From: a virus
IMG/VR virus record: IMGVR_UViG_3300021185_002143
Location: 1-64,000 of that record
DNA length: 64,000 bases
Direction: 5' to 3' (one strand)
The translations under genes were made by a program, and so were the position numbers. A model generated the notes under the pieces. The model was not told the origin of the DNA and did not search any database. It saw only the letters and a program-made list of their open reading frames with translations. Of this stretch, positions 1,824 through 24,267 are shown one piece after another. How positions within the stretch are numbered: the stretch's first letter is position 1; each line of letters begins with the position of its first letter.

Positions 1824-4800
1824 CTAGAACTTCTCGTCTAACTCAATGTATCTCGACTTGTAAGTAGCCATAGCCCGATAGATAGCACCCGCTCTGTTGA
1901 GTGCTTGCTCCTCAGTCATCGTAGGGTTAGCTCCCTGTGACTTGTCATACAAACCTTTGAAAAACTTAGGTCCGAGCTTAGGCTTATCCATGACACCATA
2001 GAAAGTATTCTTAGCTCTACGCTTGCTGACCCCTGATGAAGTCATCGTGTTATATATCTGTTGATCAGTCATCCCAAGTCCCCGATACCCACGAGAGATA
2101 CGGACTAGATCATTTTGGATTATCTTACGCTTCGCTACTTCATCATGATACAGCTGACCAAGGGCGTCCTCCGACATGGGTCTACGTGAATATGATTTAT
2201 ACTTCTGGCTGGATACCCTATCATACTCTTCTCTCAGCTCGTACAGATATCTTCTGTATTGTTGTTCCACATCTACAGTATGCGCTTTGAATGGCTTGAA
2301 CTGGTCAATCATAATTTGAAGAGGCATATCTTCCTTACGTAGTAGCGTTGGGTCAACGTCTTTAGATTCATACAGTTTCTTAAACCTCTTATATATGTCT
2401 GGACCATATGCTTCCTTGAGGACATAGGCCATTCGTTTAGTCATCTTGGTGAGCGAGTCATCTGTCCGAGTCTCTACAATAGGATTATCATTAGATGAAT
2501 TTCTGTTTTCCGAGATGTCAATCAGAGATGAGGCGAGGATTTGTGGATCTAGATACTGGTCAGTCAGGAAACCTGTGATCAGTTTACCTGCACCTGATGC
2601 ATACTCACCACGTCGTACATCCTCTATCATTCTAAGAGCGGGGTCACCCAGTAGAGAGTAGGGGTTAGAGAATGTTAAGTCCAAGCTGGTAAGTTCATCT
2701 GTCTCCTTATCTCGGAAGAACCAGAACGAATGCCCACGTAAGTATGAAGGTATTCCAGCCCGCATGGACTCATCTTCTTCCTCACCTATCCCAGCAATGT
2801 GTTGGAGAACAGCTGGCACAGTAGTTGACCACACGCCCAGCATCATGCTCATACTCGCGAACCTGTTTTGTCCCCTCCTCCTGAGCACCTTGTTGCCACT
2901 ACGCATCTCCTCGAAAGATAGCCTGTATGTGTTCATAACAATCCTCGGAACCTCCGCCTTGAATCGAATAAACGGAGCGAACAGCATAGCGAAGTTGGAT
3001 TGAGACAACCCAGTAATAAATGGTGGAGCCTCACTATGTGACTGAGCCGTCATCTTAACCTTCTTAGCGGCCATTCTCTTGAGCTGATACTCATCGGTAG
3101 GTATAGTTGAATCAGGCTCACCGCTCGCCTTACGTAGGATCTTGAGCTCGTGCTCGAAGTAGCCTATCTTGTAGAACGCATCAATGGCGGAGGCTAACTC
3201 GGCTGCTTTTTCATATAAGTATTTAGCTGGTTTCGTACCTTTTTTAATCTTACTCAACACACCCATTTGTTCTTCCATTAAGATGTCAGGAGTTGTCTTA
3301 CCCCTCATTAAGTCCAGCATCATCTGACCTCGAACTTCATCTCCTATAATTCCAAGAGAGGTATACTCAATCATAGCTTCCTCAATCTGCTCACCACGTA
3401 TTGCACCCTTCGCCTTGACGCCCGCACGTTGCATCATGATCCATGGCACATCCACAACCGCCTTATAATATCCCTGTGATGGACCGAAGAAAGCCATGTT
3501 ACTGAAGGCATTACGGACAAAGAAACCAACGCTACCGAGTGTCTTACTAGCCATTGACAAGCCAGTTACCGCCCTAGAAAACATACCAAATGATGCGATC
3601 ACTTCCTCCGATTTAGTTTGGGCAGCCCTAAGTTCTGTGCGATCAAATGTCTTGTCAAATCCATCCCTTAATTCAGGTGGGCCATAGAATCCAGCAAGCG
3701 GATCACCATCAGATGTTTCATTGGTGTTTCTCATAGGAACCCAGAGCTCATACTGATCCATATCAGCCTCACGTTCCTCCTGAGTGATCAGGAAACCCTC
3801 GGCTTTACCCATCTCCGCTACATTGTTAATGAACGACTGGTTCGCAGACATCTTCGCTACAGTAGAAAATGTTCGTAGCAGGTTATCAACCGTACCATCC
3901 TGACCATACTCACCCAGTAGATTACGTAGAGATATATCTAAGTCCTTCTTTTGCTTAAGGTTATCAATCATAATGCGGTGTGACTCCGAATGATTCTTTG
4001 CAAGGGAACTCATACTATGAGGTTGATATGATTCTAGAAATTCATCCAACATACGTTGACCTTTCGGGTGTCCACTATCATCCGCCGTTCTGAGCTTCGC
4101 CTCAGCTTGCGCCTTCGCTTCTGTCTCAGTCAGATCTTTTTCCTTCACGAGCTGCGCCGTTTTATCTTTAACGTATTGCTTCTCAAAATATTTCTTAGCG
4201 GCTTCACGGACTTCATGGTAAGCAGAATCCTTCTTAACTTTGGATGCATAGTTAGAATCAGTAAACATGCGATAGGATCTAGTGATATAGAAGTCCATGT
4301 TCATGTCTAGTCTAGCTTGAAGCTCCTCATTTAATCCGAAGTTGTCCTTGATGTATGTAGACAATGGTTGGATAAGTTCCTTACGTACATCTCTGATGTG
4401 CTGAGCTAACTCAGGAGATAAGAGTTCGAGCTCCGCCATCTTCTCATCCTTTGTCCGTAGTATCTCATCCCTAGCGATGATCTCCTCGGACTGAACGGCT
4501 TGCCTCTTACGTAACTTAGACGCTTCTTCAGCAGCTTCCGCTTGCTCATTGGTGAGATCCTTGTTGTCTCTAATAGCTTTAAGCTCAGCCTCGTGAACCG
4601 TATCAATGGCCTCAAGGGTATCACTTGTTAATACAATACCCTTCGCGTCACCCATTGCCTTCTCCAACATTTCTTTTTGGTAATCGTTAGGCTCGCCATT
4701 GAATGCTTTCTTGACAAGCTTATCCATCTTCCTCTTGTATTTAGTAACAATCAGATCCGAAGCCCTTAAGAATGCTAGTCTGTTCTTATGGAGGTCGGTG

Positions 4801-7800
4801 ATGCGTGGATCTACCTCTCCTCTAAACAAACGCTGATACCATTTACGAGGCGCATTATAATCACCCGTCGTATACACAGGCATCTCAAGTGTTTTGATGA
4901 ACCCAGCCATGTTGATGCTGTCCGCCTCTACGGAAGAACCAGCCTCGAGCGATGAACGCAACGCCCTACGTGCCACAGGTTTATACTTCACATTAAATTG
5001 TTTCATGGCATCACTACCAACACCAAGGTCAAACACGAACTGCTGATCCCATCCATAGTTTCGCCACAACCCGAGACCACCCGTGCTCTGCACTACTTTT
5101 CTGACAGACCAAGTCTTCTTAGAAGTTGTGGCCATCTTCTGTAGCTCAGCGATCTGAGTCTTGTGATACTTCTGGATACGTTTAAAGTTATCTTCGATGT
5201 AGGCAACCACATCTGCATCTGCATTATCATGTACCTTCCTGACATTCCCAAGAAGGGCGAAGGAATACTCAAGATTCTTACCAACCTTCATGACTACATC
5301 TTTGTTGTTAAATGTTTGTGCGTCCACTACATCTACCATTGCCCTGACATATTCTTCAGGAGCCGCTGTAGCAAGCCACTCTGAGAACTCATTATGTATG
5401 TGAATCGGGAGCTGACTCTCTAGCCTTACTTTGAAATCACTTAAGTCTTTATCTGTGTTTTCAAAACCCCACTTGGCCCATGCATCATAACCCTTTGTCA
5501 TAGCGCCAGAACTTTGCAGGTCTTGTATCATCTTAGCTTTCTTATTAGCGCCCATACCTTCTGCTTTCTTAACAGCGGTAGTCAATACGTTACGACGAGC
5601 CCTAGACATGTTTACGATCTGTCCTGAACCTGAACCCTGAGTCTTGATTGCTGGAGCGTTAATCTCTCCATTCGCAGCTATGAGCTGGACCATTAATGGA
5701 ACAGTATTCGGGACTGGTGTCACACGACCACCCTCACTTTTAAGTTGTTCTATCTTCGCCGACAATACATCAGCTTCTTCATTCGTTAGCTCACCCTTAC
5801 TAACTCGATCTCCTAGCATAAAGAACTCATCGTCCAATGTAATCGGACTCATAGACCCAACAGAGATAGATCCATCTGAATCAATACTGAAGTCTACCAG
5901 TGACCGCGAGCCTATCTCTCCGATAGCGACCTCCATCGTGGGACTGGTAGGTAATGACAACTCGTCAGTTATAATCTCCATATAGCCAGCACCCTCGAGT
6001 TCTGATAATGCCTGTCTTAGCTTTGATACATCAGTCGTTCCGACTGCTTGATATGTAACCTCACCAGATGAGACTTCATTGTTAAGACGAGCAAGCAAAC
6101 TATCATCTGCGGCTACTTCAGATGAACCTTTAGCTTGTTGTATATCTCGAAGAGAACGTATGTATAATGCAAAAGTATCATCAAGTGCTTTAGTAAGTTC
6201 TGGGCTTGTACCAAAGTCGGCGGCCAGTCCTTCATATAAGTCAGCATCCAGTGCTTCCAGAGCAGAAAGACCTAACTTGAGATTCATAGTGTTAGGGTTC
6301 ATCAACTCATGATTAAAGCCCTCGATATATTCGGCAAGGATTCCCCTTTGTTGATCTACGTCAGGGGTGTTGATAATATTTTCTGATGTAGTAAGTGGAC
6401 TAATATCAGACCCAGATAACATTGTGTCTTCTACGAGTGCACGTACATCATCTAACACAGCTTCATAAAACTCCTCAGGAACCTCATCAGTTTCTCTGGG
6501 TATTTGTTTTAGTGCGTTCTCATATGCTTCTTCTGCAATAGAACGTCTTGCATCCGTAACACGGCGGTGTCGCGCCTGTAAAGATGTCCGTAAAGTTTTC
6601 CTAATGTCTGTTGTAGTTTGTGGTGAGCTGTCTACCTCTTCTTTTTCTGGGTAGTCAACAAGTCCACCAGTTAGGTCTCGAACAAACTCGATCTTCTGCT
6701 TAGGTATAATATCTGGTAAAGCATTTAATCCTTCTACTGCCCTTAGTTCTGCAACAAAATCCTCTGGGTCTGAAACCATCTTATCATTTAGTATAGCCGC
6801 GAGCGTCTCAAATGAATTGTCTGGGTTATTTGGGTCAAAGTTTAGGTGTGTCGGAGCGAGTCGATACCCCCTCTTAATCGCACGTAACTCATCCACTAGT
6901 CGATTGATCGAGGATGACAGGTATTTGTTATCAATACTACCCATAGCGCGAGCCGCCGCTACCCTTTTAAACAGACCCGATACATAACGGAAGAGGATCT
7001 TCATCATGGATGGGTTTGTTTTGTAAAAGGCGTGATCTTCCTCAGTTGTGTATCCACGCGTGATACGTTGTCCTACTGAACGGAGGTGTTCCTCCACTAG
7101 CATACGCTTAGTTTCGAGAATATCTTGTTCTAGGGCAGCCTTCTCCTCAGGTGTCATATCCGAAGTTATTTCTGTCGCTAGTAAAGCCTTCGCGTCATCA
7201 CGTTTAGCTTGGTTTGTGGTAAAGTAGTTATCAATAATCCTGTCAAACTCTCTAGAGTTTAGGGTCGAAGCTAACTGATCTATCTCAGACTGAGGTATTG
7301 CATTATAGGAAGCTACGTGAGCCAGCTCCTCCTCAATGACTGCTGACATCAGCAACCGAGAAGACACAACGTCCATGTCCTTGGTGAGCTGAAAAATATT
7401 CTCTGGGTTAAGGTAAACCATACCACCCTGCATCTTAGCTGGACCAGAAGATTCTGTGTCGAATGCTAGATTAACTTCAGGGGGAATCAGATTACGCATG
7501 TGCTGAACTATAACCCTTAGTTTCTTCTGAGCCTCAGTCAAACTTAGTGAATCATCGGGGACATCTAGTTCATCTAGATTGTCTATTAATGCCTCTACCT
7601 CTGCCTCATTGTCTAGTTGGTTTTGTTCGAGGGAGCTATTAAGAGCTTGTTGCTCACGTTCATTGAGGGGCTTGTCTTCATCGCGTTGGGTCTGGGCTCG
7701 GTCTTCATAACCTCGCATGTTATTAAATCCAATAGCACGGAGCATCATGTTATTACGATCCATCCGAACCATGGCGGCCTTAGCTATTCTCTTCGCCGCT

Positions 7801-10800
7801 GTCTTGGCACTAGCCTCTACACCAGCACCAGCTTTGACTGTTATGACATCTACAATAGCATCACTATACTCAGCGGCTTCTGCGGACGTAACACCTCTCT
7901 CAAAGAACCTGAGGATAGCGTCCCCAATTCTCTTGAAGAAACTCTTCTTGGCATTCTTGGATTTACCGAGTGCGAGAATCTCTTGCTGTAACTCGTTAGA
8001 AAGCATCACACCTGCGATAAACTCATCTATGTTACCAAGGGAGTCCATGATAGGACTATTGGCAGCATACCCATTGTCGGTAGCGGCTTGCCTAATCTCA
8101 CCCATCAGATTTTCTAATCGGGACATCGCTTCCTGTTGCTTAGTGCTAAGGCTATCTTTCGGTTTAGCAAACGCATCAGAAAGGGTGGCGTGTAAATACT
8201 CCTCTAGTAATACATTAGTAAGCCCTTTGCCATTGTGACCATTTAAGTTAAGAGTCACCCCATGGGAACCATCAGTATACTTGGTATACAACCCCGCATA
8301 CTTACTCAAGTTAAGTTCGGTAATATCAAAGTCTACTGACCTTATGAACGCTGGGTTCTCAAGTAGTAGCTCAGCCACTAGTGCGTGCTGTTTATTTGAC
8401 TTATTTTTTGCGATGTTTTGTAGAGCGTTGATTACACTTTCTGGATTACCAGAGACTAGTCCCAATCTATTAGCTTCTGCTCTGTTGAGTTCTCTAGCCA
8501 TGGCTTGCCCTGCTTGGCTAACCCTAGACTTGGCCATCCGACTGCGACGAACTCGTGTGTTTTCCTTGGCAAAAGCGCCAGCGTCTGCACCATTCTTAAT
8601 GTTCTTCTGGAAACTATCCTTGTAACCTGAATCCTGACTCATGTTTCCGTCAACTGAGGCAGTATTGACATTGAGAACTTTGAGAGCGTTCTGCAGACGT
8701 AATATATCAGGGTCCTGTTGGGTTGAGTCCTCATTCTGCATCGACGCAAGCCTCTCTTTAAAAGACTTGACCTTCTGGTTTTGGTTACCTTGAGCCAACC
8801 AATCTTGAAGCATAACTGCGAGCTTGGGACTTGATGCCTTCTTGACAAACTTACGGTCAGCCGTAGTACCTGAAAAAACAGAATTTAGCAGTAAATTTTC
8901 AAGTTCAGCTCTGACTGCTTTGTTTTTATCTAGATTCTCAAGGTGTGTCGCCACTTGATCATACGTCATGTATGTATCTGTCCGATTAGGTGCAAGGTCA
9001 TCAATACGGGCTCTCTCATAATTAGCTACGACCTCCCTATCGAAGTTAATAGCCCCAGCATTTCCATCACTGGCAGCGTCAATTTCAACAATCTGTATTG
9101 AGTTCTTACGTCTTTTATTGGCATCATAAAGCTGCTGAACTCCCATGCGAGTAGACACAAGCTTAGCTACGTCTTCAACAATAGGCATCTTACCGCTGGT
9201 TTGCTGGTTGTTGAGGATCTCGTCTAGGACATAGTTCGATATAGTTTCCAGACTGTTGTCACTAACCCTACTTATTGAGAGCATAGGAGCCACCTGTTTC
9301 GCTAATCTTTTTTGACCCGCTGCATTTTTAGGTAAGTCCGTAAACTCCATGAATGCCTGAAGTATTTTTGTCCTAGCCGCCAGTTCATTTTTCTGGTTTA
9401 GTTCATACTTGCCCTCTTTGTTTTGCTGAACATACGGGAGAACGCTTGTATTGCTATCACCCCTAAGCATTTCTATTCTAACGGCGCGGGTCGATGCATA
9501 GTATCTCATCTCAGCTTGCACAGACAGTGATCCAAGGGACAAATAATTCTCGTCTAGGACTCTACCTCTGGGTGTCATCAAGTTAAAGAAACTCCCCTGA
9601 GTTGATGAATTAAGGGAGGAGCTGACGTATGAGTCGGTTGACTCGATTACCTCTGATACAGATACGGTTTCACCTTCTTGTATAACACGCATCGTGGATG
9701 GACCCGACGGTATACTAGCGACGTCCACAGCCAACTCACCTACCTTAGTTTCTGAAAATATATAAGATGCAGTCATATACTTCTCTAACGTGGAAGTATC
9801 TTCGATTGTGTCTCTACTCTTTTTGGCCTTACTCTTAGTAGATATCTGCATAGCCTCTAGAACATCAGGCTTTCTAATCATTGTCACACGTCTACCCTCT
9901 TTGTAGTCTACCTCAAACGCCTCGTTGACATCACTAGGGTCCATGTCTAGAGGTATGCTAAATGGAATCTCAGCTTCTTCCAGTAGGGCCATGGTAAGTG
10001 GGTTGTTATCAAACACGCCTTTACCATCAGCATCTACATATGCCCTGTGAATACGGCGAATTGATTTTTTTTCGACTGGGTGATACCACGTCGCGGCCTT
10101 TGTATCCTTCGTAGTGATCGTCCTCCCTCCGACTGGCTCAGCGACTTCAATCCAAGGACTATTTTCATATACCTGTACCGCAATGTAGTCAGAAATACGT
10201 GAGTAATTATGGCGATTACCCCCACCTAATACAAGACCATAGCTTCGGTTACTGTTGATACGGACAGGATACCCGAGATCAATGAGACGCTGTATCTTAG
10301 GGGCGTTGTTGTTGGGATCTCCTAATCCTACTAACTCTTCTATCTCTTCACTTAGTTCCATCACCTCATCCGCTTCCTCCTGTAAGACGGGTTCTGATAT
10401 ATCTTCTTCTAAGACACGTTTGTATGATTCTTCGGAGCGTGCCTGAGTGACTTCATCTGGGTTAATACCAGTCGCTTGTAGATTACTTACTTCCCGTGGC
10501 GTAGGTGGTGGGGACAGTATGTCAAGAGACGCTGGGGATATGGTAGAGGTATCTACATCAAGGTCTAAGATAGAATCGGATTCTTGAGTGAAGTCTAACT
10601 CTAATTGAATAGGGGCCTTAGCTGATTCACGCTCGAAGTTTTCTTCAGCTATAGCTTCACGGCTAGCCCGCTCCCAATCTTCTGGGGTGCGCTCATCGAG
10701 CTCTTCCATGATAGTAAAGACATCCTGTGTGTCTTGGTCTACACCAACTTGTTCGTTAGTATCTGGGTCTATGACCCCAACGATGTTGTTCTCACGATCA

Positions 10801-13800
10801 AGCACGTAGTTCTCTGAAATAGTTACTGCGGCATCAGATTCAGAAATCTTACCATCGGTAATGGCCTCAATCTCTTGAGCAACAAACCCAGCTTCCACGA
10901 CTCCATTCTGTCTAATTAACTTAGCTACACGCTGACGGATAAATGGCTCTGACTTCTCTACACTTGGCTCAACGACGCCTATTTCTAGTGGGGCGACTGT
11001 CTCTGAATCTACTTCAATAGGATCAGCGTCCTGTTCTGTGGTGGCTTCTTGTGGGAATACAATCGTATTAAGGGTATCCGATCCATCTTCTGATGGGATC
11101 ACTACTCCATTAGACAGGCCAACTACCCTCGAGTAAGTTTTGTCACGGACTTTAACATCTTCCTTAATCGCTACAACTGTAGCTACGTTCCCGCTTGGTA
11201 GTAACACCGAGTCACCTTCGCTTAGGGCCGATACAACTTTAGCAGTAGGTGGTATACTCTGGTCAAACTCTTGCTCACCTTCGGGGACTTCTACTGGCGC
11301 GGGTTCAGGTTCCTGCGTTGGTGTGTCTTCTACTACCTCGGGTTCCTGCGTTGGTGTGTCTTCTACTACCTCAGGTGCCTGACCTTGCTCTTGAGTAGGT
11401 GCCCCAGTTGTCTCAGACCTAGTCTGAGTATACCTGTCGTAAGCTTCGCGAGCTTGATCAACCTGACCCATAGGCACAGTTAAAATTTGTTCTACAATCT
11501 GAGCCGAGGCAGGAGCACCCTTCTCATTTAAACGTGTAGTGACATCATTGATGAAGCCTTGTTGTATCGCTTGTTCCTCAGCTCTTGCCACCGCATCAGT
11601 CGTACCCCTTACGTTTTGGATAACACGTGCTCCCGTAGGCATAGCACCACCAAAGAGACCACCAGCTAAGGAAGCCCAACCAGCACCAGTGATCCGATCT
11701 AGCATCGGTGTGTCCTGATCAGTATAGAAGTCCTGTACTATACCATTGATAAACTCGTCGATAAATTCTTCCGCCCCTTCCTGAGAAGCATCTTTAAGAA
11801 CCTCCCCAATAAACGTATCTTTTAAGCCATACTTAGAGTTGCCATACACGGATTTTTTAGTGGCTTCTTTTAATACACCAGCAAGGAGCTCGTCCTGCTT
11901 GCCAGCATCGGCGACTTGTTTGCCTCTTGCACTAAGACGAGAAATAACATTAGTGGCTTGCTTCTTAGACATACCAGCTAAGAAAGTTTTCTCAGCACCA
12001 GCGGCTCCCATAGCTCCGAAAGATCCCGTGATCAAAGCAGTAAATGATCCTGCCACAAGACCAGCTCCAACCGCACGGTCATGCTTCTCCTCATGAGACA
12101 AACCACTATCTTCTAAAGAGGAATATGTTGTTGCATATGTCATTCCAGCGGATCTGTTAAAAGCGGGGATCGCCATAGCTGGAATAGTATTAAGCTTACT
12201 AGCTTGCAACTTACTGAATTTATCAATAGCTTCCATGGCACCTTTACGGCTAGAACCCGTGGCAGTGACGAAGCCATCCTTAACTAATCTGTTCAATGCA
12301 CTCTCCGCGCTTTCTCGGCCTGTCACCTTAAACGCATTAGTTACGATACCCTTTGCCAATCCTTTTGCCGTTATTTTTGCGCCTGTCTTAGCAGCCAAGT
12401 ATGCGGCTCCACCAGCTCCCGCAGAACCAAGAGAAAGCAAACCTGTAATGGCTACGTCTGTGATAACAGGAGCTACCATCTCGGCGATGTCCTGTCCCAT
12501 ACCCATCTCAACCCCAAACAAACGTGCGGTCTCTCGCCTGTTCTGGTTATCTTTAATCTGATCTATGAGATATCCTTGAGCAGTTTCAGACCCCATAATA
12601 GCTGGTAGCGCAGCGATAGCTGACCCCAACGCATTGGGTATGGACATAGCGACACCACCTACACGAGAAGTGAGTTCACTATAATTATCATCATCCTGTA
12701 CAAATTCTTCAAGGATAGTTCCCTTACTTTTACCCTCTGCAAGACCTACTTGCACGGCTTCTTGCCACTCGTCTTGAGTGTTGCCGCCAGACAAAATCTG
12801 GTTGTATGTGTCAAAGTTATTTTCCAGAGTCAACTTCCTCTGGTTTGTTAGGTTTGTCACCTGATCCTCCGAGAGCTGCGGGTTAGCTTTGATGATCGAG
12901 TCAAACATCTGCTTTCGGGGGATTGCTGCACCGTGTATGACTGGATCTTGGTATCCGTAGTCTTTAAGATTATACTTTAACTTATCGGGCTCATCTTGAA
13001 ATGCCCACATGTTCTGCTCCGCAGCAGCCCCAGCCGCAGCCTGCTCGACGACAACCTTGAGATCATCCATGTCGATGACCTCCCCTTTATCTGACACAAG
13101 GCCAGTCTGCTCTAGGATATAACCTAGGTTCTGCACATTGCTATCGTATACTTTTTTAGCTCGGTCTATCTCTTTCTGATCTCCGCTGGATAAGCTGTCA
13201 TCGTAAGTAGCTAGTGATTGAATCGTTGATTTCCAGTATTTGTTAGCCCTGTTATGTGGGTTTGCTTCTACAGTGTTCTGGTAAGGCCCAAAGAAAACTC
13301 CTTTTCCGTCCGCGTTGCTGTGTATAAGACCTGCCAACATACGTCCTTCACGGTCCACCTGCATGGTGCCTAGTGACGGACCCTCTACATCCTCCTTTGT
13401 CAACAAGACCGTAAGCTTGTCAGCAAGGTCTACATACCGACGTTGTTCAGCATAGGTAGTCCCCTTTAGGTTGATGGGGCTGTTAGCCGCCTCAATCTCA
13501 ATAGCGTCGTTGTAGTCTATACCGAGGTGTTTTGAAGATTCAATGATCTCTTTAGTGCTCATCCCCTTGGCTTGACGGCCAAGCCTTATAACTGAATTTC
13601 CTGTAGAGTCATTGACACGAGCGGCAATTAGGTTTCCTGTATTGACACTATCAATAATAGATTTGTCCCAGTCCTCACTATATGCAACTTCTTCAGCTGC
13701 TGATTTTAACTGAGCTCGTTGTTCAATATATGCTGGGTCTTCGACCATACCCAGCTTTGCGATCGCTTTCTCATTAGCGAGATACGCCGTTGCCTTTTGC

Positions 13801-14180
13801 CACGCGTCCGTGTCGCTAGAGTGAGTGCTGGTTACTAGCTGTAGTCTCGTGTCTAGACTTATTTCTTTGGGGGCATATAGATCCCTTACTTGTTCTTTGT
13901 CCTGACGATCTAGTAAACCTTTTGATTCTAGCGCAGACTCATAGTTGTTGCGTAAATCTATTTCCACCGCCGCATTCCACGTATTATCGTCAAGGTGGTG
14001 TTTCCTTACGTAATTTGAGTACCCTTTTAAATCAGCGGCATCATCCCCTGTGGCGTTTTCTTCTCCCCATTTTGAGAACTTAGAATACGTGGGTGTTGGA
14101 ATTGCCTGAGTAGTATCATAGGCGTCGGAATCTTCACTAGCCTCAAGGGGAGTGAGTAGGTATTTGGATAGATCAGTCAT
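1824..14180 (-). CDS. Giant 4118-residue polyvalent/internal virion protein
   Basis: Single 12.4-kb frame encoding 4118 residues. N-terminal ~500 residues are polar. Residues ~505-740 are Gly/Ala-rich hydrophobic segments (ALGSAIAALPAIMG, LLSLGSAGAGGAAYLAA, GSFGAMGAAGA) that could insert in membrane. About 950 is a Pro/Glu linker with a duplicated unit, then an SH3-like stretch near 990. Two zincin-like segments follow: EEYLH at 1993-1997 with a downstream DEFIAG, and EELAH at 2284-2288. Coiled coil predominates around 3000-3300. The C-terminal ~400 residues resemble the LPD38-type domain of large phage polyvalent proteins (FAPFIRFKAEVPR near 3735). Known relatives are packaged and injected with the DNA. 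No T7- or N4-type RNA polymerase motifs were found. A TAAAAT box lies 6 nt before the ATG, without a clear -35. Confidence 0.8.
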   Translation of the reverse strand: MTDLSKYLLTPLEASEDSDAYDTTQAIPTPTYSKFSKWGEENATGDDAADLKGYSNYVRKHHLDDNTWNAAVEIDLRNNYESALESKGLLDRQDKEQVRDLYAPKEISLDTRLQLVTSTHSSDTDAWQKATAYLANEKAIAKLGMVEDPAYIEQRAQLKSAAEEVAYSEDWDKSIIDSVNTGNLIAARVNDSTGNSVIRLGRQAKGMSTKEIIESSKHLGIDYNDAIEIEAANSPINLKGTTYAEQRRYVDLADKLTVLLTKEDVEGPSLGTMQVDREGRMLAGLIHSNADGKGVFFGPYQNTVEANPHNRANKYWKSTIQSLATYDDSLSSGDQKEIDRAKKVYDSNVQNLGYILEQTGLVSDKGEVIDMDDLKVVVEQAAAGAAAEQNMWAFQDEPDKLKYNLKDYGYQDPVIHGAAIPRKQMFDSIIKANPQLSEDQVTNLTNQRKLTLENNFDTYNQILSGGNTQDEWQEAVQVGLAEGKSKGTILEEFVQDDDNYSELTSRVGGVAMSIPNALGSAIAALPAIMGSETAQGYLIDQIKDNQNRRETARLFGVEMGMGQDIAEMVAPVITDVAITGLLSLGSAGAGGAAYLAAKTGAKITAKGLAKGIVTNAFKVTGRESAESALNRLVKDGFVTATGSSRKGAMEAIDKFSKLQASKLNTIPAMAIPAFNRSAGMTYATTYSSLEDSGLSHEEKHDRAVGAGLVAGSFTALITGSFGAMGAAGAEKTFLAGMSKKQATNVISRLSARGKQVADAGKQDELLAGVLKEATKKSVYGNSKYGLKDTFIGEVLKDASQEGAEEFIDEFINGIVQDFYTDQDTPMLDRITGAGWASLAGGLFGGAMPTGARVIQNVRGTTDAVARAEEQAIQQGFINDVTTRLNEKGAPASAQIVEQILTVPMGQVDQAREAYDRYTQTRSETTGAPTQEQGQAPEVVEDTPTQEPEVVEDTPTQEPEPAPVEVPEGEQEFDQSIPPTAKVVSALSEGDSVLLPSGNVATVVAIKEDVKVRDKTYSRVVGLSNGVVIPSEDGSDTLNTIVFPQEATTEQDADPIEVDSETVAPLEIGVVEPSVEKSEPFIRQRVAKLIRQNGVVEAGFVAQEIEAITDGKISESDAAVTISENYVLDRENNIVGVIDPDTNEQVGVDQDTQDVFTIMEELDERTPEDWERASREAIAEENFERESAKAPIQLELDFTQESDSILDLDVDTSTISPASLDILSPPPTPREVSNLQATGINPDEVTQARSEESYKRVLEEDISEPVLQEEADEVMELSEEIEELVGLGDPNNNAPKIQRLIDLGYPVRINSNRSYGLVLGGGNRHNYSRISDYIAVQVYENSPWIEVAEPVGGRTITTKDTKAATWYHPVEKKSIRRIHRAYVDADGKGVFDNNPLTMALLEEAEIPFSIPLDMDPSDVNEAFEVDYKEGRRVTMIRKPDVLEAMQISTKSKAKKSRDTIEDTSTLEKYMTASYIFSETKVGELAVDVASIPSGPSTMRVIQEGETVSVSEVIESTDSYVSSSLNSSTQGSFFNLMTPRGRVLDENYLSLGSLSVQAEMRYYASTRAVRIEMLRGDSNTSVLPYVQQNKEGKYELNQKNELAARTKILQAFMEFTDLPKNAAGQKRLAKQVAPMLSISRVSDNSLETISNYVLDEILNNQQTSGKMPIVEDVAKLVSTRMGVQQLYDANKRRKNSIQIVEIDAASDGNAGAINFDREVVANYERARIDDLAPNRTDTYMTYDQVATHLENLDKNKAVRAELENLLLNSVFSGTTADRKFVKKASSPKLAVMLQDWLAQGNQNQKVKSFKERLASMQNEDSTQQDPDILRLQNALKVLNVNTASVDGNMSQDSGYKDSFQKNIKNGADAGAFAKENTRVRRSRMAKSRVSQAGQAMARELNRAEANRLGLVSGNPESVINALQNIAKNKSNKQHALVAELLLENPAFIRSVDFDITELNLSKYAGLYTKYTDGSHGVTLNLNGHNGKGLTNVLLEEYLHATLSDAFAKPKDSLSTKQQEAMSRLENLMGEIRQAATDNGYAANSPIMDSLGNIDEFIAGVMLSNELQQEILALGKSKNAKKSFFKRIGDAILRFFERGVTSAEAAEYSDAIVDVITVKAGAGVEASAKTAAKRIAKAAMVRMDRNNMMLRAIGFNNMRGYEDRAQTQRDEDKPLNEREQQALNSSLEQNQLDNEAEVEALIDNLDELDVPDDSLSLTEAQKKLRVIVQHMRNLIPPEVNLAFDTESSGPAKMQGGMVYLNPENIFQLTKDMDVVSSRLLMSAVIEEELAHVASYNAIPQSEIDQLASTLNSREFDRIIDNYFTTNQAKRDDAKALLATEITSDMTPEEKAALEQDILETKRMLVEEHLRSVGQRITRGYTTEEDHAFYKTNPSMMKILFRYVSGLFKRVAAARAMGSIDNKYLSSSINRLVDELRAIKRGYRLAPTHLNFDPNNPDNSFETLAAILNDKMVSDPEDFVAELRAVEGLNALPDIIPKQKIEFVRDLTGGLVDYPEKEEVDSSPQTTTDIRKTLRTSLQARHRRVTDARRSIAEEAYENALKQIPRETDEVPEEFYEAVLDDVRALVEDTMLSGSDISPLTTSENIINTPDVDQQRGILAEYIEGFNHELMNPNTMNLKLGLSALEALDADLYEGLAADFGTSPELTKALDDTFALYIRSLRDIQQAKGSSEVAADDSLLARLNNEVSSGEVTYQAVGTTDVSKLRQALSELEGAGYMEIITDELSLPTSPTMEVAIGEIGSRSLVDFSIDSDGSISVGSMSPITLDDEFFMLGDRVSKGELTNEEADVLSAKIEQLKSEGGRVTPVPNTVPLMVQLIAANGEINAPAIKTQGSGSGQIVNMSRARRNVLTTAVKKAEGMGANKKAKMIQDLQSSGAMTKGYDAWAKWGFENTDKDLSDFKVRLESQLPIHIHNEFSEWLATAAPEEYVRAMVDVVDAQTFNNKDVVMKVGKNLEYSFALLGNVRKVHDNADADVVAYIEDNFKRIQKYHKTQIAELQKMATTSKKTWSVRKVVQSTGGLGLWRNYGWDQQFVFDLGVGSDAMKQFNVKYKPVARRALRSSLEAGSSVEADSINMAGFIKTLEMPVYTTGDYNAPRKWYQRLFRGEVDPRITDLHKNRLAFLRASDLIVTKYKRKMDKLVKKAFNGEPNDYQKEMLEKAMGDAKGIVLTSDTLEAIDTVHEAELKAIRDNKDLTNEQAEAAEEASKLRKRQAVQSEEIIARDEILRTKDEKMAELELLSPELAQHIRDVRKELIQPLSTYIKDNFGLNEELQARLDMNMDFYITRSYRMFTDSNYASKVKKDSAYHEVREAAKKYFEKQYVKDKTAQLVKEKDLTETEAKAQAEAKLRTADDSGHPKGQRMLDEFLESYQPHSMSSLAKNHSESHRIMIDNLKQKKDLDISLRNLLGEYGQDGTVDNLLRTFSTVAKMSANQSFINNVAEMGKAEGFLITQEEREADMDQYELWVPMRNTNETSDGDPLAGFYGPPELRDGFDKTFDRTELRAAQTKSEEVIASFGMFSRAVTGLSMASKTLGSVGFFVRNAFSNMAFFGPSQGYYKAVVDVPWIMMQRAGVKAKGAIRGEQIEEAMIEYTSLGIIGDEVRGQMMLDLMRGKTTPDILMEEQMGVLSKIKKGTKPAKYLYEKAAELASAIDAFYKIGYFEHELKILRKASGEPDSTIPTDEYQLKRMAAKKVKMTAQSHSEAPPFITGLSQSNFAMLFAPFIRFKAEVPRIVMNTYRLSFEEMRSGNKVLRRRGQNRFASMSMMLGVWSTTVPAVLQHIAGIGEEEDESMRAGIPSYLRGHSFWFFRDKETDELTSLDLTFSNPYSLLGDPALRMIEDVRRGEYASGAGKLITGFLTDQYLDPQILASSLIDISENRNSSNDNPIVETRTDDSLTKMTKRMAYVLKEAYGPDIYKRFKKLYESKDVDPTLLRKEDMPLQIMIDQFKPFKAHTVDVEQQYRRYLYELREEYDRVSSQKYKSYSRRPMSEDALGQLYHDEVAKRKIIQNDLVRISRGYRGLGMTDQQIYNTMTSSGVSKRRAKNTFYGVMDKPKLGPKFFKGLYDKSQGANPTMTEEQALNRAGAIYRAMATYKSRYIELDEKF
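11308..11373. repeat. 33-bp tandem duplication in the giant gene
   Basis: Two almost identical 33-bp units (11308-11340 and 11341-11373) encode two copies of an EVVEDTPTQEP-type acidic Pro/Thr linker. The unit length is a multiple of three, so copy-number change would not shift the frame. It sits between the hydrophobic N-terminal segments and the SH3-like region, and is most simply a flexible inter-domain spacer of variable length. Confidence 0.8.
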
Positions 14181-14203: not shown

Positions 14204-15244
14204 TTATTCTAAATCCCACTGTGTGTTTGTTGGTGGTGGTGAAGTTTGGTTTTCGTTTGATTGTTGTCTGATGGGCTTGAATTGGCTGTTTTCAATGTCC
14301 ATCTCCATAGCATAGGCTGCATCATACAATTCGTCTTGTAAGTCATCGTCAGCTAACTTTAGTTCTCTTACATCTTTAAGAGACTGTTTCGTGATGCGAG
14401 CGTATATACGCTCGAGTTTCTTACGAGATTGGGGCTTGAGGACAGATGGTCCACCAGTATCGCTCGGCTCCTTCATCATAAACTGTTGAGTTTCTGGGTC
14501 AAATGCCAAGCCTCCCTTATCATCACCCGTGTAAGACAAAGAGTCGAGTGCGGAAAATGCGGATTTAACAATCGCATTGTTCTTCGCGATGAAATCAGTT
14601 CTAGCTTTAGCACCAGCCTGTTGACTAATCTTATCCTGTCCTGATCGACGCGCATATTGGGCGAAGTCTAGAGCAGATTGCTCGTCTTCGGTTCTGACAC
14701 CATCCGCGTCAATCATAGCGGTAACCTCATCCACGCCCCCTGATTCAGCATATGGTTTTAGTCTGCTCATATACTTACCGCGCTCTTCTTTTTCTTTGTT
14801 TTCTATCTTAATCCTTTCCTTTTCCTGCAACTCAAGACTCTTATAGGCGGTGCCAATTATCGAAGACCCTAAACCTGAGTTAGCTAGATACGGATTCTTG
14901 AGCTGTAGCTCGGTGAGGGCTTTGGCTTTTGATCCGCTATCCCCCTCGGCATCATTAATGTCATTAATCTGACTTACAAGATTCGGGATACGTGATTCAA
15001 GATCGCGTTCTCGGGCTGCTTTATCCTTTGAATTTTTAAGATCTGCTAATGTAGCCTCATACCGAAGATCACTATTCCTGATAGAAGCTAATTGAGATTG
15101 AATGGTCAACATGTCCTTCATGTCTTTTGTGTCTGGACCATACTTTTTAGCAAGGTACGAGCCTTCACGACTCGATAACCCAGACTTGAAAAAGCTCCCG
15201 CGCATGGGAGCTATGTCACCTTCAAATGAAAAACCTTGTGGCAT
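14204..15244 (-). CDS. Putative internal virion protein, helical
   Basis: 346 residues, ending 23 bases before the start of the giant gene. The sequence is highly charged and helical, with long Lys/Glu/Arg stretches (ELQEKERIKIENKEKEERGKYMSRL) that suggest coiled coil. There is no signal peptide and no recognised enzyme motif. The C-terminus is Pro/Asn/Gln-rich. Its position directly upstream of the giant protein, in the same operon, suggests a partner that is co-packaged or assembles with it, as in other short-tailed phages with sets of internal virion proteins. Confidence 0.6.
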   Translation of the reverse strand: MPQGFSFEGDIAPMRGSFFKSGLSSREGSYLAKKYGPDTKDMKDMLTIQSQLASIRNSDLRYEATLADLKNSKDKAARERDLESRIPNLVSQINDINDAEGDSGSKAKALTELQLKNPYLANSGLGSSIIGTAYKSLELQEKERIKIENKEKEERGKYMSRLKPYAESGGVDEVTAMIDADGVRTEDEQSALDFAQYARRSGQDKISQQAGAKARTDFIAKNNAIVKSAFSALDSLSYTGDDKGGLAFDPETQQFMMKEPSDTGGPSVLKPQSRKKLERIYARITKQSLKDVRELKLADDDLQDELYDAAYAMEMDIENSQFKPIRQQSNENQTSPPPTNTQWDLE

Positions 15245-15246: not shown

Positions 15247-15654
15247 TTAATATCTAGTTTCTTGTCCTCGTCGCACCTCATCTGGTTCAGTAATCCCATC
15301 TCCATCACGCCTTGTTCTGTTACGCATGAACTCATCTATCATGTCCTGCATTTGTTGCCCATAATCTATTTCACCTCCTTTTGCTCTCTCCTGAGCGTCC
15401 ACGAATGCTTGCGATTTTACTGTTGGCTCACCCGCTATTTTTTCAGCAGCTGCTCTACGCCTTAGCATACGGGCTCCTTCCTTATCTCCAGCACGTCCTA
15501 GCTTGCGAGCCTCCAACAGCATACGACCAGCTTCGGACATGATTTGTCGAGATGGTGCATCGAGCCCTGTGATGCGGAGAGCTTTAGGCCGTGCGGCTGC
15601 TTTCTGCTTGATGGAAAGCTTCGGTTTGTTCTTCTCGTCTTTGTAATATTTCAT
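15247..15654 (-). CDS. Small basic protein, probable virion component
   Basis: 135 residues, strongly basic, with Arg/Lys-rich helices (KQKAAARPKALR, EGARMLRRRAAAEK) and a charged C-terminus. It is 2 bases from the next gene, so translation is likely coupled. No family was recognised. The gene order, between two other internal-virion-like genes, suggests a DNA-associated or internal core protein. Confidence 0.55.
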   Translation of the reverse strand: MKYYKDEKNKPKLSIKQKAAARPKALRITGLDAPSRQIMSEAGRMLLEARKLGRAGDKEGARMLRRRAAAEKIAGEPTVKSQAFVDAQERAKGGEIDYGQQMQDMIDEFMRNRTRRDGDGITEPDEVRRGQETRY

Positions 15655-15676: not shown

Positions 15677-16729
15677 TTACGATCTGTTGCGTCGTCTCTC
15701 CTCTTTATCTAGGTCAGCTTGGCTTGTCCTGATGTTGCTCCCTGTTCTGTTTCGCTGTAACCCCCCAGAAGCACCCTGTGTTGTCGCTCTGTTACTCCTC
15801 TGAGAGTCTACTGTGTCTAAAAACTTCCCCATATTTGCACGTCTGTAATCACGCTCTGCTTGCTTATCTAGTTGCTTGTTTGCATAAGAGTCAATTTGAT
15901 CACTACTAAGACCCATGTCTTTACCCATAGCGTAGAAATTGGCTTTGTCTTCGGAAGACGCCGTGGCTGGGTTGTAGTTAGCGGCGTTCAGTTGGGACGC
16001 AAAATCTTTTCTTTTATCAGTTCTTGCCTGATTAGCGATCTTGTTCTGGTTCATGTTGAACGCTCTTTCCGCAGCGGCTAGATTTTGAGGATTATAGTCT
16101 CGGACGTAATCACCTTGATTATTCTTAGTGACTAGTTCACTGGGGTCAAACTTAGGCTGTTTCTTCTCTAAAAAATTATCAGCTTTGGGTGTCGCCGCAG
16201 GTTGAAACTTACCTTCTCGACTTGTAGCCATCACATCATCTACTACGCCAGCGAGATCCACGGGTTCGCTAGCAATCGCTGAAAGTTGGTTTCCTTTGAG
16301 TATACCCTCTGGCGTTGTTGGCGTTGGTGCAGATCCAAATGGCACGGCTGCTCCAAGGGAAGGTGCTTTTGGACCACGAGCCATGTCCATTAACTGCTTA
16401 CTCTTACCGAGACCTTCGTATGCGCTGAGAGAATCTTGCACTGAATTAAACAAGGATGAACCACCGCCCGCTCTGTTTTTTTCCACTACGGCATTATTAT
16501 CGTATTGTCTAAGCTGCTCATCACGAGCTGCTTGGTCTGCACGACGACTCCTAGCTTGTCCCTCAGGCCCACTAAAAAATGACTCGGCTTCCTTGCCTAG
16601 ATTCTTGAACATCCCTTGGAGACTGGCGGATTGCCCCCTTTTGATTTGCTCACGTTTTAAGCTCTCTGACAATTCATCCGCAAATTCTGCAAATGTCTTA
16701 ACTCTTTTATCTTTGTCTTTGTCGGCCAT
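15677..16729 (-). CDS. Low-complexity polar protein, probable internal virion protein
   Basis: 350 residues with many Gln, Asn, Lys, Arg and Ala residues and no recognised domain. It begins MADKDKDKRVKTFAEFADEL and ends with a Ser/Arg-rich tail. It starts about 60 bases after the large terminase stop and has its own promoter-like sequence upstream (16753-16780), so it probably heads the transcript carrying the three internal-virion-like genes and the giant gene. Function is inferred from position only. Confidence 0.55.
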   Translation of the reverse strand: MADKDKDKRVKTFAEFADELSESLKREQIKRGQSASLQGMFKNLGKEAESFFSGPEGQARSRRADQAARDEQLRQYDNNAVVEKNRAGGGSSLFNSVQDSLSAYEGLGKSKQLMDMARGPKAPSLGAAVPFGSAPTPTTPEGILKGNQLSAIASEPVDLAGVVDDVMATSREGKFQPAATPKADNFLEKKQPKFDPSELVTKNNQGDYVRDYNPQNLAAAERAFNMNQNKIANQARTDKRKDFASQLNAANYNPATASSEDKANFYAMGKDMGLSSDQIDSYANKQLDKQAERDYRRANMGKFLDTVDSQRSNRATTQGASGGLQRNRTGSNIRTSQADLDKEERRRNRS

Positions 16730-16788: not shown

Positions 16789-18567
16789 TCAAGGTAAGTA
16801 AGCGGCGTCGTTCTGCAGTGCGGCTTTTAGGTGCTTCATCGACTTAGGTGGTTTCCTATAAGCCTGATTTGGATCTTCCTCACGTGGCTCCATAGCGATC
16901 AATCCGTGCCTCTGGCGAGCACAGTCAAGGGCTAGAAACGCCGCATCTGCAAGGTCGGGAGACTGTCCGAGCCTCTGCTTAAACTCTGGCTTGGACTCAA
17001 TCCTAACCTTTAGTGAGCCAGTCTTTACTAGCTCATAGTTCCGACCGACAATTTCCTGAGCTAAATCAGAGTCCACACCAAAAATTTGTCTGGTCCTCAT
17101 GAGCTCCTTGCCCACAAACCACAGCTCTGACACTCGGTTGGTATATAGCTCCAGTCCCGTAAGCTGGCTATTCACTGAGACACGCTTATCTGAGGGTCTG
17201 CCACCAAAGGTAACACGTAAGAATCTAGCCGACCACTCTCCTGCCAATACGTCACAGAAAGATGAACCTGCACCAGTTGCGTCCACCGCTAGATCATCGG
17301 GGGCTACACCCTCCTTCTTACAAATCTTCTTAATCTGCTCGACCAGCTGATATGTCCGTGGCACCGCCTTGTTGGTCGCATCATCATTAAGCTGGTAGCT
17401 CTTACCTAGCTCAAAGACAAACTGACCTGTATCGTCGGTACCTACCTGACCTACATACAGCACGGTCCTGTCACCGCCATTAGTAAAGGCAGGGTCGAGA
17501 CCAGCTACCTTGGTAGGTGATGATGCCCATCGAACCTTATTCATGCACCCGCTCTTGGTTATCTCATTCTCGCTGTAGATACCTTCGTCCTCATCTGAGT
17601 CAAAGAATACAGCTCGCACCATTCGCATATAACCACGGGAGCTAGTTCCCAGTAGCTCACGCTTCTCCGCGATCTGATCGGCACGTGGTAAGTATGGGTA
17701 GATTGTCTCACCTGCTAAGATGTTTGGACTACGCTCACCATCCAGTCGTATGTATTTACCACCCCATTTGGTACGCCAGCCGTCATCGACGTTGGTATCT
17801 ACCGAATCCCAGCCATCCTCTGGCTCAGACCACACGCCAAACGCATCGAACTTCGAGCTCGGGTTGGACATACCGATCATGCGGAACTCGGGGTTTGATG
17901 ACAAGTTGGTCAGACCAGCGTGGACCACAGCCTCAGATATCTCAGATAGCTCGTCACCTATAACAATAACCCGCCTGTTCTTAATACCGATAAACTTACC
18001 TACTGCCTCACGAGTCCTGCTCTTCTCCGCTGCAATAAGCGAAAGACCAGACTTCTCTAGGAGTGTGCCGTGCTCGTTTACGTAAGCTACGTTACCTATG
18101 GAATCCCGAATCCTGAAAGGCATATCATCTATCACTGCCAGTAAGCTGATAATAGAACCCCAGATCCGCTTACGTGCTTCACGCAACGTGGTTGAAGTAA
18201 TCAGGACTAAGGTATCCTTAGGCTGGGATAGACAGTTGATGATAGCGTAGGCCGCCATCGTGTGTGACTTGGATGAGGATGCAGCACCACCAACAGCAAC
18301 AAACTTATTCTCAAGGCAGCTTCGGATGATTATCTTAGCCCATGGGTTTGGTTGCATCAGGGGCTCAGGTAGATCTGGCCTATTCCACAGCACATCACAG
18401 GCTCTCCAGAAGTAATACTCCTTCGCCTTCATCAAGTCGTGGTTAGCAAAACCAAACAGTAAGGCAGTTAGCAAACTAGTTGGTGGTATCTCCATGCCAC
18501 CCACATCCATCTTGGTGCTAGACGGCTTAATGAACGGCTCGTATTTGCTGTCTAATTTAATCTCCAT
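16789..18567 (-). CDS. terL: Terminase large subunit (packaging ATPase/nuclease)
   Basis: 592 residues from ATG 18567; an upstream in-frame codon at 18609 would collide with the divergent gene and is rejected. The N-terminal ATPase half has a P-loop-like GGAASSSKS (93-101) and a Walker B strand ending VIVIGDE (200-206). The second half has an RNase H-like nuclease start (AGLDPAF, Asp358) and later acidic residues (AVDATGAG, PDLADAAF). Large terminases cut concatemeric DNA and pump it into proheads through the portal. The P-loop deviates from the classical GxxxxGKS by having Ser in place of the last Gly. The gene is divergent from the putative small subunit. Confidence 0.85.
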   Translation of the reverse strand: MEIKLDSKYEPFIKPSSTKMDVGGMEIPPTSLLTALLFGFANHDLMKAKEYYFWRACDVLWNRPDLPEPLMQPNPWAKIIIRSCLENKFVAVGGAASSSKSHTMAAYAIINCLSQPKDTLVLITSTTLREARKRIWGSIISLLAVIDDMPFRIRDSIGNVAYVNEHGTLLEKSGLSLIAAEKSRTREAVGKFIGIKNRRVIVIGDELSEISEAVVHAGLTNLSSNPEFRMIGMSNPSSKFDAFGVWSEPEDGWDSVDTNVDDGWRTKWGGKYIRLDGERSPNILAGETIYPYLPRADQIAEKRELLGTSSRGYMRMVRAVFFDSDEDEGIYSENEITKSGCMNKVRWASSPTKVAGLDPAFTNGGDRTVLYVGQVGTDDTGQFVFELGKSYQLNDDATNKAVPRTYQLVEQIKKICKKEGVAPDDLAVDATGAGSSFCDVLAGEWSARFLRVTFGGRPSDKRVSVNSQLTGLELYTNRVSELWFVGKELMRTRQIFGVDSDLAQEIVGRNYELVKTGSLKVRIESKPEFKQRLGQSPDLADAAFLALDCARQRHGLIAMEPREEDPNQAYRKPPKSMKHLKAALQNDAAYLP

Positions 18568-18573
18568 TAATGA

Positions 18574-18602
18574 TTGAATACATTGTAAATACAAACTATA
18601 CT
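18574..18602 (+). promoter_or_regulatory. Leaderless-type promoter for the putative small terminase
   Basis: TTGAAT, a 17-base spacer and TATACT, with the -10 box ending 7 bases before the ATG at 18610. Transcription would start at or next to the first base of the ATG. The region is only 42 bp wide and also carries the 5' end of the divergent terL. Confidence 0.6.
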
Positions 18603-18609
18603 CCAACAC

Positions 18610-20106: not shown

Positions 20107-21399
20107 ATGAAAACACTATTTCCCAAGCAAGAAGACGCGCATAGATTCTTTACTATTACCCAGCGTCAGGGACACAACACACTCGACACCAGCGATGCTG
20201 GAACAGGCAAAACTGTAGTTGCCGCTGCGTTAGCAAAATCATTAGGACACCCTGTTGCTGTCCTGTGCCCTAAGCAAGTTATCCCGTCTTGGGAGCGCGA
20301 GTTAAAAGATATGGGCGTAGACCCACTTTTTGTAATTAACTACGAAAAGATTCGTGGTGGTCGTACCAAGTGGATGACCAAGTCAGGTAAGAAGATAATG
20401 AAGTGGATGTTACCTATGGGAACACTTCTTCTCGTAGATGAGATCCACAAGTGCAAAGGACCCTACACACAAAATGCACAGATCGTTTTGTCACTCGTTA
20501 ACCAAGGTTATCAGATACATGGTATGTCTGCTACAGCAGCGGAAGACCCGACTGAGATGAGATCACTCGGCTACATGCTCAAGCTACACAGTCTTAACAA
20601 AGCGGACAAGCCACTGAGATCTTGGTATAGCTGGATGACTAGACTTGGTTGCGAAAAGGATTTCTGGAATCAGTGGCGTTTGACTAAAAAGAGCAAACTT
20701 AAAGACCTCAGGGAGAGCATGTATGGCATCAGCACTGACCGACTGTCCGTGCAGGACCTGCCTGACGCCTTTAAAGACAACCGTATCTTCGTTGAGCCAA
20801 TTCAATTTAAGAATTTAGCTAAGATCAAAAAGGCTTACAAAGACCTAGGTCTCACACCAGAGATCCTAGAGCAGTATATTGAGAACGGCACAGTAGAGAA
20901 CAGTGAGCATGTCATCGTCAATATCATACGTGCCCGCCAACTGGCTGAGACATTGAAGGTACCTGACCTTGTCGAGATGGCTGAGGACCTCATGTTGGAA
21001 GGACTAAGTGTTGTTATCTTTGTCAGCTTTAAAGAAACTGTAGAGTCGCTCTGCGAAAAACTACAGTGCGACCGCATCGAGGGTTCGCAGAAGTCAGATC
21101 GTCAGCAGGTCATCGACGACTTTCAGGCAGATAAGACTACTTGTATTGTTGTCAACACCGCAGCAGGTGGCACAGGTATATCACTCCATGACGTGAATGG
21201 AGAGCGGCCCCGTGTTAGTCTTATATCCCCACAGTTTTCTGCCAAGGACCACGTCCAAGTATTAGGACGCATCCACCGCAATGGCATGAAGTCAGACGCA
21301 CTTCAAAAGATTCTCGTCGCAAGTGGCAGTGTAGAGGAGGCAGTAATGTCTTCGATGCAACGTCGCCTCGACAACCTCAAAACACTACAGAACCAATGA
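20107..21399 (+). CDS. SNF2/SF2-type DNA helicase
   Basis: 430 residues with the ordered SF2 motifs. They are motif I AGTGKT (31-36), motif II DEIH (111-114), motif III SAT (141-143), a second-lobe strand VVIFVSF, motif V AAGGTGISL and motif VI QVLGRIHR near the C-terminus. The arrangement is that of compact phage SNF2-like translocases near replication genes. It probably remodels forks or recombination intermediates. The stop overlaps the next start by four bases (ATGA). Confidence 0.85.
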   Translation: MKTLFPKQEDAHRFFTITQRQGHNTLDTSDAGTGKTVVAAALAKSLGHPVAVLCPKQVIPSWERELKDMGVDPLFVINYEKIRGGRTKWMTKSGKKIMKWMLPMGTLLLVDEIHKCKGPYTQNAQIVLSLVNQGYQIHGMSATAAEDPTEMRSLGYMLKLHSLNKADKPLRSWYSWMTRLGCEKDFWNQWRLTKKSKLKDLRESMYGISTDRLSVQDLPDAFKDNRIFVEPIQFKNLAKIKKAYKDLGLTPEILEQYIENGTVENSEHVIVNIIRARQLAETLKVPDLVEMAEDLMLEGLSVVIFVSFKETVESLCEKLQCDRIEGSQKSDRQQVIDDFQADKTTCIVVNTAAGGTGISLHDVNGERPRVSLISPQFSAKDHVQVLGRIHRNGMKSDALQKILVASGSVEEAVMSSMQRRLDNLKTLQNQ

Positions 21400-22040: not shown

Positions 22041-22053
22041 AACAAATAACACA

Positions 22054-22221
22054 ATGAGTGAAGAAAATAAAGACAACGGACTCGACGCAATCTTACAAAA
22101 CAAGTTTGTGCAAGAGCTCCTTAAATTCGTAAGTGATATCAGAAGCGCCTTAGGTGATGAGAAAGGTGAACTAGAGAACCATGAGGTTGTCGAGCGTGCA
22201 CGTAACTCCTACAACAAGTAA
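22054..22221 (+). CDS. Small acidic hypothetical protein
   Basis: 55 residues from ATG 22054, preceded by an A-rich leader (AACAAATAACACA) like those of other genes here. An upstream in-frame ATG inside the previous gene is less likely. The sequence is helical (DAILQNKFVQELLKFVSDIRSALGDEKG). Its stop shares a base with the next start (TAATG). No family was recognised. Confidence 0.5.
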   Translation: MSEENKDNGLDAILQNKFVQELLKFVSDIRSALGDEKGELENHEVVERARNSYNK

Positions 22222-23351: not shown

Positions 23352-23384
23352 ACCAATAAACCATAAAACAAACAAAACAATAAA

Positions 23385-24047: not shown

Positions 24048-24054
24048 TACGACC

Positions 24055-24267
24055 ATGAGTAACCAACAAGTAGTCGTCTTAGAACATGAGCTCATTACGG
24101 CTAATGATCATCTTGCCCAACTTGATAGCAATATCAAGCAGCTTGAAGAGCAATACGCCAACCTCGTAGTAGTCATTGACGCATTCGAGAAGTCCAAAGA
24201 ACTGTTGCAGAAGATGGCCGATGAGCTACCTGAGCAACTTGAACTTGCACTGGACGAAGAAGAATAA
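24055..24267 (+). CDS. Small coiled-coil protein
   Basis: 70 residues, almost entirely heptad-like (LEHELITANDHLAQLDSNIKQLEEQYANLVVVIDAFEKSKELLQKMADEL) with an acidic C-terminal tail (EEE). It starts 7 bases after the preceding stop and ends just before a terminator. Probably an oligomeric accessory factor of the replication set; no family was recognised. Confidence 0.6.
   Translation: MSNQQVVVLEHELITANDHLAQLDSNIKQLEEQYANLVVVIDAFEKSKELLQKMADELPEQLELALDEEE

Follow-up and report, generated by a model that had tools for sequence, protein, structure and literature searches.

A giant phage protein with a conserved scaffold, two zincin-like domains, and an exchangeable cargo slot

We analyzed a window of 64,000 bases, part of a 66,220-base IMG/VR virus record that derives from an environmental sample and represents a virus of bacteria. 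An earlier note, made from the letters of this DNA, had described a 4,118-residue open reading frame (ORF) at positions 1824..14180. The coordinates are exact and the frame is intact; the note did not give the strand, which is minus, and the gene takes up 12,357 of the 64,000 bases (19.3%). The parts of the giant protein, in order from its N terminus, and the genes upstream of it were as follows (basis in parentheses).

1824..14180, minus: giant ORF P0001, 4118 aa (ORF coordinates; orthologues L002 and L003)
11421..12683, minus: N-module, residues 500-920, Gly/Ala-rich, three conserved hydrophobic segments (profiles, hhalign)
10311..11420, minus: Pro/Glu-rich variable linker, residues 921-1290 (length variation in the clade)
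8541..10310, minus: M-module, residues 1291-1880, no known fold (motif conservation in relatives)
7821..8543, minus: Z1, zincin-like domain, residues 1880-2120, LLEEYLHA at 1991-1998, third-ligand Glu 2053 (profile, model)
6771..7763, minus: Z2, second zincin-like domain, residues 2140-2470, E2284-E2285-x-x-H2288 and E2364 (motif, model)
4941..6770, minus: cargo slot, residues 2471-3080, 610 aa (comparison of relatives)
5454..5966, minus: conserved cargo core, residues 2739-2909, G-Y-x-x-W motif (common to other slots)
1827..4940, minus: C-module, residues 3081-4118, all-helical, LPD38-like (profiles, AlphaFold2 model)
14204..15244, minus: 346-aa protein just upstream of the giant gene, no database match (position)
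15247..15654, minus: 135-aa charged protein, no match (database search)
15677..16729, minus: 350-aa protein, no match (database search)
16789..18609, minus: terminase large subunit (phrog_2, E 3.7e-20)

The giant gene is not an assembly artefact, because a copy differing by 1 nt was found in a second IMG/VR contig (L002) and a third contig (L003) encodes an orthologue of 4,135 aa that is 71% identical across its full length. In the comparison of P0001 with the L003 protein, pN was 0.18 against a saturated pS of 0.79, and we therefore conclude that purifying selection acts on the entire frame, most weakly in residues 2471-3080 (pN 0.32). Searches with the whole protein against Pfam, PHROGs, and PDB sequences returned no significant match, and a DNA-level search of phages with the giant gene also returned none. 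In phage genomes, tblastn with the N-terminal half of the protein found no match; the matches were confined to the C terminus, at residues about 3291-4052, and came from Cellulophaga phages and Pseudoalteromonas phage vB_Pun_Y3.

The terminase large subunit gene, three small genes, and the giant gene form a run on one strand with the giant gene last, and the order in L003 is identical, with a 344-aa ORF in the position of the 346-aa upstream neighbour. Polyvalent proteins are expected in a late or virion-gene setting, and the place of the giant gene after the terminase is such a setting. From its position, the 346-aa protein is a candidate companion ejection protein. Among packaging and structural genes, the searches yielded the terminase and weak tail matches but neither a portal nor a capsid protein. 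Elsewhere in the window were a plus-strand block with a helicase, a DNA polymerase, and a primase-like protein (20107-28336), a large protein of 1,278 aa without a reliable match (33975-37811), a clear endolysin (38147-38773; phrog_435, E 5.5e-43), and a large protein of 1,205 aa with weak tail matches (42443-46060).

Profile scans of IMG/VR identified 80 loci with the C-module and 69 loci with the middle region. When segment profiles were located in each relative, about 48 viral contigs had one fixed module order: N (500-920), M core (1290-1480), Z1 (1880-2120), Z2 (2140-2470), C (3080-3260), and an LPD38-like region (about 3228-4103). This count was made after obvious duplicates had been taken out and includes a few contigs without a detectable M or Z1; it does not equal the number of independent lineages, because closely related contigs remain in the set. 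The outer modules are conserved across these viruses, and the content of the middle slot is exchanged between relatives. Some relatives of the C-module (L087-L095) sit in bacterial genome contigs (Azomonas, Marinomonas, Dechloromonas, Zoogloea, and others) and are probably prophages.

The glycine-rich hydrophobic segments described in the earlier note are Gly/Ala-rich and conserved (507-525, 565-583, 703-721, and 3774-3792), and the N-module is a candidate membrane-inserting part. Its profile matched the N termini of one group of distant LPD38-like proteins over 324 columns (hhalign, 91%, E 9e-7; 1.7% in the reversed control), so part of a wider family shares both ends with the giant protein; two other distant groups gave weak matches (12% and 4%) and a fourth gave none. 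Against PDB sequences, solved ejection proteins included, the N-module profile had no significant match; the top-ranking sequence was bacteriocin AS-48, which we set aside as a relative at an E value of 0.1. Matches of residues 500-720 in distant proteins were also set aside, their scores being within the decoy range, in favour of the profile-profile comparison with its reversed control, and a HEEKH at residue 696 was dropped as a zincin site since the motif is not conserved in the clade.

Across the clade, the gap between N2 and M varies from 130 to 761 aa. The linker in this gap holds the stretch that had been called SH3-like (about 975-1032), a reading that found no support: the region gave only a sub-threshold YajC match (980-1012; 14.5 bits, cut-off 28.2) and was absent from the aligned relatives except L003. 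The M-module carries the motif D-x-x-G-x-G-x-F-D-N-x-P, and G1388, F1390, N1392, P1394, and N1419 were invariant in 40 of 40 relatives.

Both of the zincin-like sites proposed earlier proved to be real as domains, and both read E-E-x-x-H (1993-1997 and 2284-2288). Z1 scored 17.5 bits against the zincin (MPTase) of the N4 virion RNA polymerase (vRNAP), with decoys at most 3.3, and hhalign related the two at 97.2% (E 2.9e-11). Among PDB sequences, the Z1 profile matched two phage proteins, each with an HExxH in register with the Z1 motif: 8vb2_A, the PhiM1 tetrameric ejection protein gp48 (E 1.3e-7), and 9sfn_G, which is labelled "Internal virion protein" (E 3e-8). The 8VB2 structure is the ejectosome of Pectobacterium phage PhiM1; the part of its description considered here names gp48 residues 268-528 "endolysin/exotransglycosidase-like" and mentions no metallopeptidase or zinc site (PMC11440229). 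Residues 381-501 of gp48 have an HExxH plus a Glu in register with Z1, and on this alignment they may be a zincin. In our model, Z1 has three strands ahead of the motif helix and the third-ligand Glu in a later helix, a layout that agrees with the zincin core described by Iyer et al. (PMC5512222). A model of residues 1885-3084 had BFVD matches at probabilities of 0.99 to 1.0 to Internal protein D of Bordetella phage BB8, an LT_GEWL phage protein, and the virion RNAP of Vibrio phage phi 1; the BFVD output does not give the matched region of the model, and an alignment of 215 to 253 columns is about what Z1 would span. Foldseek of the same model against the PDB returned nothing reliable.

Z1 and Z2 aligned weakly, in motif register (E 0.015 in one comparison, 3% probability), and the assignment of Z2 as a zincin for this reason rests mainly on its motif, its model, and four relatives with HExxH. 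Designed helix bundles were set aside as Z2 relatives (E 0.018 for a tandem-repeat chain, with no single stretch significant). In 47 aligned sequences, position 1993 of Z1 was Glu in 24, His in 19, and Arg in 3; position 1994 was Glu in 43, 1997 was His in every one of the 46 sequences not gapped there, and 2053 was Glu in 43. In Z2, position 2284 was Glu in 42 and His in 4, and Glu 2285, His 2288, and Glu 2364 were present in all 47. One relative, L144, has HExxH in both domains. In three relatives, Z1 reads R-S where the first His and the Glu would stand. Gluzincins have HExxH plus a downstream Glu, and both domains of the giant protein instead have EExxH while keeping the catalytic Glu, the second His, and the third-ligand Glu. 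By its homology to the N4 MPTase and to the two solved ejection proteins, Z1 is of the zincin-like MPTase type found in polyvalent proteins, though its first zinc ligand is Glu. Peptidase activity is doubtful because both domains are EExxH. In these alignments, the replacement of one ligand while the others stay is unlike the free decay of a metal site, and the pair would now be mainly structural or metal-binding rather than proteolytic.

An AlphaFold2 model of the C-module was almost all helical (pLDDT 72, pTM 0.64), and the long coiled coils expected by the earlier note appear in it as long helices. Neither the model against PDB structures nor the profile against PDB sequences gave a significant match. 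The LPD38-like character of the C terminus, also proposed in that note, held as a profile-profile similarity but not as Pfam membership: the C-module matched three usable true LPD38 proteins over 343 columns (hhalign, 84%, E 7e-6; 15% and E 0.002 in an earlier alignment that included one wrong-strand ORF), and Pfam LPD38 (PF18857) was not found at E<=10 in 13 records, where the identical search found LPD38 in 4 other genomes as a positive control. We therefore call the module LPD38-like. The PHROG phrog_22602, "virion structural protein," matched 33 of 43 C-module members, P0001 itself not being among those matched. The homologue in Cellulophaga phage phi18:3, gp123, is a structural protein whose record reads "annotation based on experimental MS/MS proteomics analysis." By hhalign, the C-module had no significant match to the N4 encapsidation region. 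Since the N- and C-modules match no solved ejection protein, only Z1 ties the giant protein directly to ejection proteins.

The distance from Z2 to the C-module, here called the slot, ranged from 9 to 1,785 aa in the 48 contigs, with nine contigs at 9 to 40 aa and the remainder at 238 to 1,785 aa. Two pairs of relatives illustrate how its contents move. L121 and L124 are 95.8% identical in Z1-Z2 and 95.4% in the C-module, but their slots (684 and 1,036 aa) are without BLAST similarity to each other. Conversely, the slots of L121 and L120 are 97% identical over 447 aa, while their scaffolds are only 73.9% (Z1-Z2) and 86.7% (C-module) identical. By these comparisons, slot contents are swapped as a cassette between phages. 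Variation is not confined to the slot, its main site: other gaps, such as that between N2 and M, differ in length too. Recognised effector-type domains were found only in the slots of relatives: DUF7178 (Pfam) was above the cut-off in five (L008, L014, L017, L134, and L167) and below it in two (L013 and L153), Phage_L5_gp82 was at the cut-off in one, and ART-PolyVal was sub-threshold in one. For this family, sequence comparison establishes the modules, their homologies, the slot, and the cassette exchange.

The giant protein itself has the two zincin-fold domains and unrecognised cargo. The earlier note had pointed to several middle regions with no recognisable domain; comparison of relatives localises the unrecognised part to residues 2471-3080, which had no significant Pfam match. 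The suggestion that the protein carries an anti-defence or takeover enzyme was not borne out, as none was identified and both zincins lack the first zinc His. Within the slot, a core at residues 2739-2909 is common to the slots of seven other contigs and L003, has invariant T, G, G-Y, W, and F positions, and is more conserved than the slot as a whole (pN 0.21 versus 0.32). The core was modelled as a helix, four strands, helices, and a strand, with pLDDT mostly 77 to 89. Its profile ranked the GNAT 1r57 second in the PDB (E 0.48, a weak match), with a GNAT motif-A register visible by eye; Foldseek of the 1,200-aa model (1885-3084) found no GNAT. GNATs are a known polyvalent theme (PMC5512222), and we regard a GNAT-like core as a tentative assignment that falls somewhat short of an even chance. 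A search for solo relatives of the core returned only the query's own contigs.

Taken together, the giant protein is likely to be carried in the virion and ejected along with the DNA into the host, combining a conserved scaffold with an exchangeable cargo cassette. The earlier claim of a polyvalent-type, virion-delivered protein is supported as probable packaging by the MS/MS-annotated C-module homologue, phrog_22602, and the zincin common to ejection proteins and N4 vRNAP. Homologues and gene order point to packaging, ejection, membrane passage, retention by the C-module, and action of the cargo in the host. In such a scheme, the protein would be packed in the virion and ejected into the host together with the phage DNA; the hydrophobic Gly/Ala segments of the N-module would insert in the membrane; the scaffold (N, M, the zincin pair, and the C-module) would carry out packaging and delivery, with the helical LPD38-like C-module retaining the protein in the capsid; and the slot between Z2 and the C-module would carry the cargo exchanged among phages, whose core here may act as a GNAT-like acyltransferase on some host target. 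A broader version is a speculation that we favour less than its converse: that the fixed ejection-protein scaffold is a general delivery vehicle into which unrelated effectors are swapped at one main slot, with a new effector family here and a zincin pair converted to Glu-Glu-x-x-His with a new conserved role.

Iyer et al. proposed zincin-driven polyprotein cleavage for polyvalent proteins (PMC5512222), and active zincins might cut the giant chain before or after delivery and free the cargo. The near or full invariance of the catalytic Glu (1994 and 2285), the second His (1997 and 2288), and the third-ligand Glu (2053 and 2364) in 46 to 47 sequences is in keeping with this, as is a first-position His in 19 of 46 relatives for Z1 and 4 of 47 for Z2. 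We nevertheless consider autoproteolysis unlikely, given the change of the first-ligand His to Glu at both sites of the giant protein (E1993 and E2284; for Z2 likewise in 42 of 47), the three relatives with R-S in Z1, and the packaging of N4 vRNAP in unprocessed form (PMC5512222). Still less likely is a structural role alone, as a core or tape-measure protein whose slot is filler with no effector function. The nine contigs with empty slots (9 to 40 aa) show that cargo is dispensable for the particle, and the slot is the fastest-evolving part (pN 0.32); against this, the slots of relatives hold recognised polyvalent-type domains, slot contents are exchanged as cassettes, and the cargo core of the giant protein is more conserved than the slot average.

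Another reading is a diverged N4-kind virion RNA polymerase, with the polymerase in the N-terminal half; in its favour are the similar size, the zincin in common, and a gene arrangement broadly like that of N4, where small genes also precede the giant one. The earlier note had named a known RNA polymerase or methyltransferase domain accounting for the whole middle region as evidence against its view. At the sequence level, the M region showed no RNA polymerase similarity: its profiles scored at decoy level against N4 vRNAP, and profile comparison with the N4 polymerase core gave a probability of 0.2%. On these scores we rejected an RNA polymerase identity, which is highly improbable; a Pfam scan of the giant protein for methyltransferases found no match either.

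The favoured reading, a packaged and ejected protein with exchangeable cargo, can be set beside known systems. Polyvalent virion-delivered giant proteins have been described since 2017 (Iyer et al., PMC5512222). Like the phage-type members, the protein studied here is a giant multidomain chain with zincins, an LPD38-like module, a virion-gene neighbourhood, and cargo exchange; unlike them, it has no Pfam polyvalent domain over the cut-off, its zincins are EExxH, and its main exchange slot lies between fixed modules. It shares giant size and a homologous zincin with the N4 virion RNA polymerase gp50, but no RNA polymerase was found in it and the C-terminal regions are not detectably related. 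With podophage ejection proteins it shares Z1, homologous to residues 381-501 of PhiM1 gp48 (PDB 8VB2) and 420-546 of 9sfn_G, chains of about 1,300 aa that neither its N- nor its C-module matches. The MS/MS-supported virion protein gp123 of phi18:3 is homologous in the C-module (residues 3291-4052, about 22% identity), but it is 1,935 aa long and has no BLAST similarity outside this module. In vB_Pun_Y3, the C-module homologue (WPJ21802/WPJ21803, E 4e-24) adjoins the classical polyvalent domains ddrB-ParB, ART-PolyVal, LPD5, and LPD1; unlike the giant protein, these proteins have another cargo set and a canonical HExxH zincin (HEWWH at 2682). In this phage (L004, 831-14205), WPJ21803 opens with a stretch of about 320 residues that also occurs close to the end of WPJ21802; the direct duplication may be an artefact of an assembly in which a single giant protein was split.

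As far as we have seen, the fixed-scaffold and slot anatomy, the signs of cassette exchange, the unrecognised cargo family, the EExxH pair, and the zincin link to solved ejection proteins are new; a partial literature search found no prior description of any of them. The permanent and the exchangeable parts of polyvalent mosaics can now be separated in this family, and reading the slot between Z2 and the C-module offers a comparative route to injected phage effectors. One zincin domain links the N4 virion RNA polymerase, podophage ejection proteins, and polyvalent proteins, and the frequent replacement of its first His suggests a role mainly other than that of a peptidase, which can be tested.
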